This document shows positions 2,442-5,345 of a stretch of 38,361 nt of DNA, in pieces; position 1 is the stretch's first letter; each line of letters opens with the position of its first letter. The notes under the pieces were generated by a model. That model was not told the DNA's origin, made no database searches, and saw only the letters and a program-made list of their open reading frames with translations. Made by a program: the position numbers and the translations under genes. Source of the DNA: Eubacteriaceae bacterium (GTDB lineage: Bacteria; Bacillota; Clostridia; Eubacteriales; Alkalibacteraceae); NCBI GenBank assembly GCA_013335935.1, contig JAAXUP010000013.1:1-38361 (forward strand). The letters are read 5' to 3'.

Positions 2442-3191
2442 ATGGATACTCAATTCGACCCAAATAACAATATTATTAAACTATGTCTTCGGGGTATGGG
2501 CATGGAAGATAGTGGAAAACCTGAAGATGCAAGCTTGCTGTTTCTTAAAGCCTGGAGTGAAGCAACAGACGACTTTGAAAGATTTATTGCTGCTTATTAT
2601 GTAGCCCGACATCAAAAAAATATTTCAGACAAATTAAAATGGTTGGAAACATCTTTGCAGTTTGCGTTAAAACTAAATGATGATACCGTTAAGAGTGCGT
2701 TCCCATTGTTATATTTAAACATTGCAAAATGCTATGAGGAGTTAGGCGATCCTGACAAAGCAAAAAAGAATTATGAATTATCAAATTCGTATAAGATTGC
2801 CCCTTCTGACAAGGGTCCCTTTTATCATGGGACAAAAGCAGATTTGCAGGTTGGTGATCTACTGACAGCAAAGGGGGACTCGAATTACAAACCTGATCTT
2901 AAAATGAACCACATTTATTTCACAGCCCTTATTAATGGTGCGAGACTTGCAGCTGCATTAGCAAAAGGGGAAGGAAGTGAACGTGTTTATATTGTAGAAC
3001 CGACGGGGAAATTTGAAAACGACCCAAATGTTACAGACAAGAAATTTCCAGGCAATCTGACACGCTCATATCGATCACAAGAACCTTTGAAAATTGTTGG
3101 CGAAGAAACAGAGTGGGTGCGGCAAACGCCTGTGGAACTTCGCCTATGGCGTGAAAAGTTGGCCAATAACAAAGGAGAAATTATTAATTGA
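2442..3191 (+). CDS. arr: NAD+-rifampin ADP-ribosyltransferase with helical N-terminal extension
   Basis: Residues from about 125 to 249 are a full Arr domain: FYHGTKADLQVGD, SNYKPDLKMNHIYFTA, AKGEGSERVYIVEPTG, DPNVTDKKFPGN and SYRSQEPLKIVGE. Arr transfers ADP-ribose from NAD+ to the C23 hydroxyl of rifamycins and inactivates them in the cytoplasm. Stand-alone Arr proteins are about 140 residues. Here about 120 residues are added in front, with TPR-like helix pairs (LYLNIAKCYEELGDPDKAKKNYE at about 87-109), so the protein is nearly double length. An AGGTGAAAT-type ribosome site precedes the ATG. The catalytic domain is a confident call; the role of the extension is unknown. Resistance is predicted, not shown. 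Confidence 0.92.
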   Translation: MDTQFDPNNNIIKLCLRGMGMEDSGKPEDASLLFLKAWSEATDDFERFIAAYYVARHQKNISDKLKWLETSLQFALKLNDDTVKSAFPLLYLNIAKCYEELGDPDKAKKNYELSNSYKIAPSDKGPFYHGTKADLQVGDLLTAKGDSNYKPDLKMNHIYFTALINGARLAAALAKGEGSERVYIVEPTGKFENDPNVTDKKFPGNLTRSYRSQEPLKIVGEETEWVRQTPVELRLWREKLANNKGEIIN

Positions 3192-3410: not shown

Positions 3411-5144
3411 CTAAAGCAACTTAATCAGCTCTTCTAACTCGGTAGAGTAAGCTTTTGCTAGTTCAAAATTAGTATCTGTTAAAGCTAAGGCTATTTTCGT
3501 TTCGACTGATTTTTTCTTTTGTTCAATTTCCAAATAGTCTCGATCAAAGTGACTCGCGTAAATCATCTTTCGAAATTTTCGAATACTCATCTTTCGAATG
3601 GTTTTATCTTCAATTATTAAAACATAATCCACACAGTTTACAATTGAATAAAAGTCATGAGAAATCATTAAAATGGCACCTTTATAGTTTGCTATTGCTT
3701 TTTCCAGCGCTATCTGCGAGTAGGTATCTAAATGGCTCGTCGGCTCATCAAGAAGGAATAGGTCATTTTTAAGAGCGGAAACTTTAGCCAGTTGAAGTAT
3801 GTTTTTTTCTCCACCAGACAAATTTGCAATTTTTTGATGGAGGTCTTCTTCGTTAAAACCATAGTTTGAAACATATAGTACAATTTTTTCATAGGTTTTA
3901 AACCCAGAATCGAAAAACTCTTCAAGTATTGTATTGGATTCATTTAATATTTCTCCTTGAAGCTGAGATAAATAAGCTACCTTCACGTTTTCATTTAGTT
4001 TAATAGAATCATGATTGTTTTTAAAGATTTCCCGGAGCAAAGTCGTTTTCCCGGTGCCATTTGAGCCGATTAGGGCTACTTTATCAGTAGATTTAATCTC
4101 AAAGTTAATATTTTGCAGGAGCATTTCATCGAAGGCAATACTCCAATCAGTAACTTTTAAAATGGTTTCTTCCATTTTATTATTAGAAATAAAACGGAAG
4201 TTCGGATGTTTAATATCAACAAATGGCAGTTTAATTCTACGCGCTTCTAATCTTTCCTGTACTTTAACTCGAGCTTTTAAAGATTTTCCTTTTGAGGCTT
4301 CTGAATTATTCGTTGCAATAAATCTTAGTCTATTGATTAAAATTTCATTTCTTTCAATTTCTTCAGTATCAGCAATAGCCAGTTCTTGTGCTTCGATTTT
4401 ACTTTGAAGTAAGGTGAAGTCATATTCAATATATCTTCCATTAAATTCCTGGAGTTCCATGTTTTCGAGGTGAATGATCTTATTAAAACAATGATTTAAT
4501 AGATATCTGTTGTGCGTAATAACGAGGATTATTCCCTTGTGTGAATTAATCAGATATTTAAGAGCTTTAAGGTTTTCAAAGTCTAGGAACACGTCAGGTT
4601 CATCCATAATCATTAAGTCTGGAACAGTCAGCATTTCCTTGATTACTTGAATAAGTTTGAATTCTCCTCCACTAAGTTCAGATACCATTACATTTTCAAG
4701 TTTCGCTAAGTTTGCTTGATTTAGTTTCTTAGTAATGTTGCTTTCAAAATTATCCCCATCAATTGCCTCAAAAGCGTTTAATACTTTTTGGTACCTTTCA
4801 AGCAAAGAATCGATATCCGAAGATGTTTCCATTTCAGTACAAATAGATGTTATTTCATTTTGTAGCTTAATAAATTCTTCTCCTATATATTCGAAAACGG
4901 TTTTTTTTGTTTTGTCTAATTGGATGAACTGGCTTACATACCCAACTCTACAGTTTGGGTCAATCTCTAATCTTCCATCGAACATATATTTATCGGGATC
5001 CGTCAGTATGTTTATCAGTGTGCTTTTACCACTGCCACTTCTTCCTATAAAAGCACAATGTTGACCATCTTCTAAAGTAAATGAAATCTCCTTAAAAAGT
5101 TCTTTCTGGGGAAATGAGTAAGATAAATTATCAACTTTTATCAT
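3411..5144 (-). CDS. ABC-F family ATPase, likely ribosomal protection / antibiotic resistance
   Basis: A 577-residue protein with two ABC ATPase domains and no membrane segments, as in ABC-F factors that bind the ribosomal E site. Domain 1 has Walker A GRSGSGKST (about residues 33-41), signature LSGGE and Walker B LMIMDEP. Domain 2 has Walker A GSNGTGKTT, signature LSGGEK, Walker B LFLLDEPTSHLD and a switch histidine (ISHD). Between them lies the charged interdomain linker with an ARVKVQERLEARR segment. I start at the ATG at 5144, which has AGAGAGG nearby, rather than seven codons earlier. The length and upstream attenuator fit Lsa/Vga/Msr/VmlR-type resistance factors dislodging lincosamides, pleuromutilins, streptogramins or macrolides. 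The drug class cannot be read from sequence, and a housekeeping role is possible. Confidence 0.85.
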   Translation of the reverse strand: MIKVDNLSYSFPQKELFKEISFTLEDGQHCAFIGRSGSGKSTLINILTDPDKYMFDGRLEIDPNCRVGYVSQFIQLDKTKKTVFEYIGEEFIKLQNEITSICTEMETSSDIDSLLERYQKVLNAFEAIDGDNFESNITKKLNQANLAKLENVMVSELSGGEFKLIQVIKEMLTVPDLMIMDEPDVFLDFENLKALKYLINSHKGIILVITHNRYLLNHCFNKIIHLENMELQEFNGRYIEYDFTLLQSKIEAQELAIADTEEIERNEILINRLRFIATNNSEASKGKSLKARVKVQERLEARRIKLPFVDIKHPNFRFISNNKMEETILKVTDWSIAFDEMLLQNINFEIKSTDKVALIGSNGTGKTTLLREIFKNNHDSIKLNENVKVAYLSQLQGEILNESNTILEEFFDSGFKTYEKIVLYVSNYGFNEEDLHQKIANLSGGEKNILQLAKVSALKNDLFLLDEPTSHLDTYSQIALEKAIANYKGAILMISHDFYSIVNCVDYVLIIEDKTIRKMSIRKFRKMIYASHFDRDYLEIEQKKKSVETKIALALTDTNFELAKAYSTELEELIKLL

Positions 5145-5166
5145 GGTAATACCTCTCTTTATCACT

Positions 5167-5192
5167 AAAAAAAAGCCTATTAAAAATAAGCT
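5167..5192 (-). terminator. Attenuator terminator in the ABC-F leader
   Basis: On the minus strand AGCTTATT (5192-5185) pairs with AATAGGCT (5181-5174) around a three-base loop and is followed by eight T. It lies 23 bases before the ABC-F start codon, so it would stop transcription before the gene unless overridden. That position is typical of attenuators of ribosome-protection genes. Confidence 0.7.
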
Positions 5193-5197
5193 CTTTA

Positions 5198-5254
5198 TTA
5201 ATATAATTTTTCCAATCGCAATTGATGCAACTGATGATTATGTAGCAAAGACAT
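5198..5254 (-). CDS. Possible leader peptide (18 aa) of the ABC-F attenuator
   Basis: An ATG at 5254 opens an 18-codon frame, MSLLHNHQLHQLRLEKLY, whose stop at 5200-5198 lies six bases before the terminator stem. A purine-rich AAAAGA precedes the start. A ribosome stalled on this frame by an antibiotic could change folding and let polymerase read through, as described for vmlR- and erm-type leaders. The placement is the evidence. The ribosome binding site is weak and I could not identify a specific antiterminator pairing. Confidence 0.45.
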   Translation of the reverse strand: MSLLHNHQLHQLRLEKLY

Positions 5255-5274
5255 TCTTTTAAGTTTACTGTTGA

Positions 5275-5303
5275 AGCATAACACTTTTTACCGTTAAGTT
5301 CAA
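5275..5303 (-). promoter_or_regulatory. Candidate promoter for the ABC-F leader transcript
   Basis: On the minus strand TTGAAC (5303-5298) is followed after exactly 17 bases by TATGCT (5280-5275). Transcription would start near 5268, giving a leader of about 125 bases containing the small frame and the terminator. A second -10-like TATAAT lies at 5316-5311 with a poorer -35. Confidence 0.45.
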
Positions 5304-5345
5304 TCATTTCATTATAAAGTCTCCGCTGCTTACTTTTCATTTTCT

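Follow-up and report, generated by a model that had tools for sequence, protein, structure and literature searches.

A conserved leader and probable transcription attenuator in front of a divergent clostridial ABC-F gene

An ABC-F gene encoding a 577-residue protein lies on the minus strand of the window (the whole 38,361-nt stretch of DNA that was analysed) at 3411-5144, with its ATG at 5144; the assignment is based on Pfam and NCBIfam matches, relatives, a tree and a structure model. Direct reading of the DNA upstream on the same strand revealed a -35 element TTGAAC (5298-5303), an extended -10 element TGtTATGCT (5275-5283, with TATGCT at 5280-5275) after a 17-nt spacer, an 18-codon frame MSLLHNHQLHQLRLEKLY (5198-5254, ATG at 5254 and TAA at 5200-5198) and the Shine-Dalgarno region AAAGAGAGG of the ABC-F gene (5152-5160). 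Folding predicted two hairpins in this leader, namely P1, formed by CAGUUGCA/UGCGAUUG (5213-5233), and an intrinsic terminator (5167-5196) with the arms AAAGAGCTTATT (5196-5185) and AATAGGCTTTTT (5181-5170) and eight T at 5174-5167. The promoter, the 18-codon frame, the hairpin with its T-tract and the ABC-F start were each found where the first-pass annotation had placed them. The closeness of the frame's stop to the stem was also correct; the gap, given there as six bases, is 2 bases when A-U pairs are counted.

The protein has two ABC domains, a helical linker, no membrane domain and an ABC-F fold, which are the features that define an ABC-F protein. It does not reach the NCBIfam cut-off of any named resistance ABC-F family, with 244 bits for Vga (cut-off 725), 224 for CplR (780) and 166 for OptrA (1450); the curated cut-offs of Msr, Lsa and Sal are likewise missed, and the general ribo_prot_ABC_F model gave 294 bits against a cut-off of 380. 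Relatives with 72-82% identity occur in Clostridia, Paenibacillus and Cohnella, and a single Clostridium-like genus holds further ones with identities as low as 62%. The distribution is patchy, the gene being carried by 16 of 391 Clostridia genomes and in 12 of 223 genera; given how similar the copies of different classes are, this suggests that the gene has spread horizontally. When placed in a tree among other ABC-Fs, the family forms a separate long branch (1.71 changes per column); its deep placement is unsure, as several reference branches are also long. The distance from Walker A to the signature motif, 123-124 residues as in EttA, indicates an Arm, and the linker, though short, is about 10 residues longer than that of EttA. 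The structure model, which has a mean pLDDT of 76 and a linker of poor quality, is most like PoxtA (TM 0.69/0.74) and EttA, sharing with them the Arm insertion in NBD1 and the ABC-F fold with two NBDs. However, identity to PoxtA, OptrA and EttA is only about 25%, and the family is separate from them on its long branch. The gene represents a divergent lineage in no named resistance ABC-F family, and any antibiotic inducibility of it is therefore only inferred.

From the window alone, the case for the leader elements is modest, because a consensus scanner listed neither the promoter (8 of 12 matches) nor the terminator (too few G-C pairs). The folding energy of the terminator segment is -10.3 kcal/mol compared with -4.5 in shuffled sequences (z -3.3; 1 of 200 shuffles was equally good), and its stem contains a G-U pair that is G-C in most relatives. 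No Rfam family was found in the window above the gathering threshold, and the matches at the leader were at chance level. A 69-residue open reading frame (5131-5340) spans both the promoter and the terminator and was considered spurious. It was the comparison across relatives that confirmed the promoter, the terminator and the Shine-Dalgarno site.

The DNA upstream of the ABC-F gene was aligned for 54 distinct clostridial copies. Mean column identity in these leaders was 0.90 for the -35 element, 0.96 for the -10 element, 0.92 for the terminator stem and 0.95 for the Shine-Dalgarno region, and 0.78 for the ATG of the small frame, the same as in the flanking leader, and 0.79 for codons 6-9. Judging from this alignment, the promoter, P1, the terminator and the Shine-Dalgarno site are under conservation while the intervening DNA drifts. 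P1 showed 22 compensatory cells compared with 6.3 in shuffles that leave relatedness in place, and none of 1000 shuffles equalled it; a second alignment, covering P1 and the terminator, agreed with the first (16 compared with 4.3, 0 of 500). In controls in which the structure was slid along the alignment, at most about 54% of cells were paired, against 91% for the real structure, and one such control came near it in compensatory cells (13 versus 16). This covariation indicates that P1 is selected as a structure. The terminator is paired in 95-97% of cells in the relatives and shows only slight covariation, most of it from a single pair at which G-U and A-U alternate, because its sequence is almost invariant. 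A further hairpin, P0 (GGUAAA/UUUACU), around the start of the small frame seemed compelling in two single sequences (L036 and L061); it was dropped, having zero compensatory cells in 53 leaders. In one leader (L115), about 80 nt are inserted downstream of the terminator and ahead of the Shine-Dalgarno site; the insert contains a large, hairpin-like inverted repeat and might be a small mobile element.

The leader is specific to this gene. A covariance model of the leader gave 14 matches in the 391 Clostridia genomes, all 14 directly before this ABC-F gene, and these cover 14 of the 16 genomes that hold it. The genes beside the other ABC-F copies are unrelated to the neighbours in the window; because the neighbours change, the leader and the ABC-F gene can be regarded as a unit. 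The upstream neighbour has the same orientation in 44 cases and the opposite one in 28, and its identity varies too, so the terminator is not one that serves the upstream gene. Control by the adjacent PucR-type gene was also considered and rejected, as no relative of PucR or Arr was found beside any other ABC-F copy. At 2442-3191 on the plus strand, the window encodes a rifampin ADP-ribosyltransferase (Arr-ms) domain behind TPR-like repeats, in a gene convergent with the ABC-F gene; it was not found beside other copies of the ABC-F gene.

A promoter and a predicted terminator thus lie upstream of the ABC-F gene and are dedicated to it. The order of promoter, structured leader, terminator, Shine-Dalgarno site and gene is kept across lineages with changing neighbours, for which transcription attenuation is the best explanation. 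The proposal in the first-pass annotation of an attenuator at this place gained strong comparative support from the conserved order, the covariation and the 14 of 14 model matches, and the conserved leader very probably controls the ABC-F gene as a true attenuator.

Known ABC-F leaders attenuate through terminators (PMC9226507, PMC10201436, PMC10314930). The vmlR leader of Bacillus subtilis likewise has a promoter, a 5' small frame, a further hairpin, an intrinsic terminator and the ABC-F gene within about 220 nt (PMC9226507). However, vmlR has a conserved MIN frame with a Shine-Dalgarno site, an anti-antiterminator/antiterminator system and a hairpin that sequesters the Shine-Dalgarno site of the gene (PMC9226507), none of which was found in the window leader, and no sequence similarity is claimed. 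The cplR leader of Clostridia also places a terminator in front of a clostridial ABC-F gene, with a conserved MR[I/M] uORF and a terminator hairpin that sequesters the Shine-Dalgarno site (PMC10201436). In the window, by contrast, the Shine-Dalgarno site lies outside the terminator, and the protein stays at 224 bits against the CplR cut-off of 780. In the msrD leader of Streptococcus, the terminator similarly lies between a small frame and the ABC-F gene (PMC10314930), and there the leader peptide msrDL is the tested sensor, whereas the frame in the window leader is not conserved. Three features of the uORF-attenuator class, a conserved translated uORF, a conserved position of its stop relative to the terminator and a vmlR-type antiterminator, were looked for and not found here. 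A literature search found no publication on this leader.

We favour, with moderate confidence, a reading in which the leader is a conserved attenuator of transcription that serves a single divergent ABC-F family, with impaired translation as the most likely trigger and P1 as part of the switch. RNA polymerase would start from the extended -10 promoter and transcribe a leader of about 110 nt, which would fold into P1 and then into the intrinsic terminator, so that most transcripts would stop before the gene. Read-through would give the full mRNA, in which the Shine-Dalgarno site lies just past the U-tract. By analogy with vmlR, cplR and msrD, the trigger would most likely be impaired translation or impaired transcription-translation coupling in the leader. 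A fixed position of a frame beside the terminator would not be required, and lineages that keep the start codon may sense early arrest. A search with RNAalifold for an antiterminator conserved among the leaders, which extended to the terminator loop (without the 3' arm of the terminator), recovered only P1, and this counts against the reading.

The first-pass annotation had further assigned the control to a ribosome on the 18-codon frame, stalled at a stop next to the stem. As a mechanism of the family, this is not supported by the relatives. At the position homologous to the start codon, 28 of the 54 leaders have NTG (25 ATG, 2 GTG and 1 TTG); 8 have ATA and 2 have ATT, and the codon is destroyed or deleted in the rest (L113 and L133 are examples of leaders without NTG). 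On the ABC-F protein tree, the state of the start codon changed at least 18 times, an approximate count because the tree (FastTree) has many open forks. At least ten leaders (10 of 52) have no ATG between the promoter and the terminator, 2 of 52 have no ATG, GTG or TTG before the terminator, and all of them keep the terminator, which counts in favour of the attenuator reading. With rough leader boundaries, 42 of 53 leaders contain an ATG, compared with 37 expected from base-shuffling. The conservation of codons 2-5 is the same whether or not a leader has the start codon, and these codons thus carry no coding signature, nor was a codon-position signature found in the small frame of the 54 leaders. 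The stop varies in position from before or inside P1 to beyond the terminator. In the closest relative (82% identical protein), the frame has 7 codons (MSLLDNS) and ends far upstream, and MSLLHKNQV followed by a stop is found in many Clostridium leaders; the frame of L038 reads through into the terminator, and that of L044 is in frame with the ABC-F gene. The stop next to the stem is therefore specific to the window, where the 18-codon frame has no good Shine-Dalgarno site before it. An alternative frame near the transcription start, beginning MVNSVECLYY, was dropped because its start is non-conserved and too near the -10 element. Taken over the alignment, the 18-codon frame cannot be the general sensor of the family. 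Ribosome control through it is possible in this one sequence, and we infer that it is at most an accessory sensor in some lineages.

Early-codon sensing, limited to the lineages that keep the start, is a tentative alternative, and we consider it rather unlikely. Drug-arrested ribosomes on MSLLH would alter folding or RNA polymerase pausing, so that the start of the frame and not its length matters, in likeness to the MIN frame of vmlR and MR[I/M] of cplR. Several families retain MSLLH and its start in spite of the shifting stop, the ATA and ATT replacements (10 of 54) might be weak starts, and in known ABC-F leaders the uORFs are very short and arrest ribosomes directly after initiation (PMC10201436). 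However, the conservation of codons 2-5 is indifferent to the start codon, the hairpin flanking the start lacks covariation support, and the search for an antiterminator gave none. A similarly low probability is given to a terminator-gated leader that senses ribosome trouble without any conserved leader peptide, e.g., through P1 or the coupling of RNA polymerase and ribosome, with the Paenibacillus/Cohnella clade rebuilt to a terminator-free form with a conserved Shine-Dalgarno block.

Steric stalling as in MsrD is improbable. In this model, a drug would arrest the ribosome close to the last codons of the 18-codon frame, where the ribosome would mask the 5' arm of the terminator and thereby allow read-through into the ABC-F gene. 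In its favour, the frame is intact in the window and only 2-6 bases separate its stop from the stem, so that a ribosome at the stop would overlap the terminator, and in msrD, the closest known case to this model, the stalled ribosome obstructs the terminator (PMC10314930). But even the 82% relative does not share this geometry, about half of the leaders lack the start codon and at least ten lack ATG altogether, and neither a codon-position signature nor a good Shine-Dalgarno site accompanies the frame. Furthermore, the overlap occurs only with a ribosome at the stop, so the sign of the response would depend on where the drug acts, and an early-stalling drug would leave the terminator free, with the opposite effect. 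A constitutive role, in which a leaky terminator sets a low constant ABC-F level or the short terminated transcript is itself functional, would suit the nearly invariant terminator and the failure to find a conserved sensor or antiterminator, but it is also improbable, as a weak promoter would be cheaper, known ABC-F terminators are regulated and P1 appears to be selected as a structure.

The analysis adds a conserved, apparently undescribed leader together with a divergent family of ABC-F genes whose occurrence in Clostridia and Paenibacillus is scattered. If induction is shown, the existence of natural leaders that have or lack the small frame would allow a test of whether ABC-F attenuation needs a leader peptide.

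The leader or its terminator has been lost in the Paenibacillus/Cohnella clade, in part of Clostridium and in Hungatella/Lacrimispora, and the regulation is therefore not indispensable. The sampled Paenibacillus and Cohnella copies form one clade (plus one record titled Bacillus) nested among terminator-type copies, and the loss of the terminator in it is one change on the tree. These copies (L048-L110) are terminator-free and carry, in the last 60 nt before the ABC-F gene, a highly conserved block AATAGTCAC....TTTAGTTATAAAGAAAGGTAA that ends in the Shine-Dalgarno site. The block can be read as a 17-codon frame, MFxNTSNNSHxFSYKER, with its stop ending four bases before the ABC-F start. As a coding frame it was rejected, since identity is flat by codon position (0.886/0.907/0.881), and the block might rather function as an element of the RNA or DNA. 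These features suggest that, in this clade, the switch was either remodelled to act on translation or lost. A ZMP/ZTP riboswitch was observed in the flank of one Paenibacillus locus (L048:361-440, plus strand). Three Clostridium-like copies (L135, L137 and L140) have lost the terminator and keep a fragment, AATCAAGTGTAAAATT, that resembles the 5' half of P1; their upstream DNA is possibly a decayed leader.
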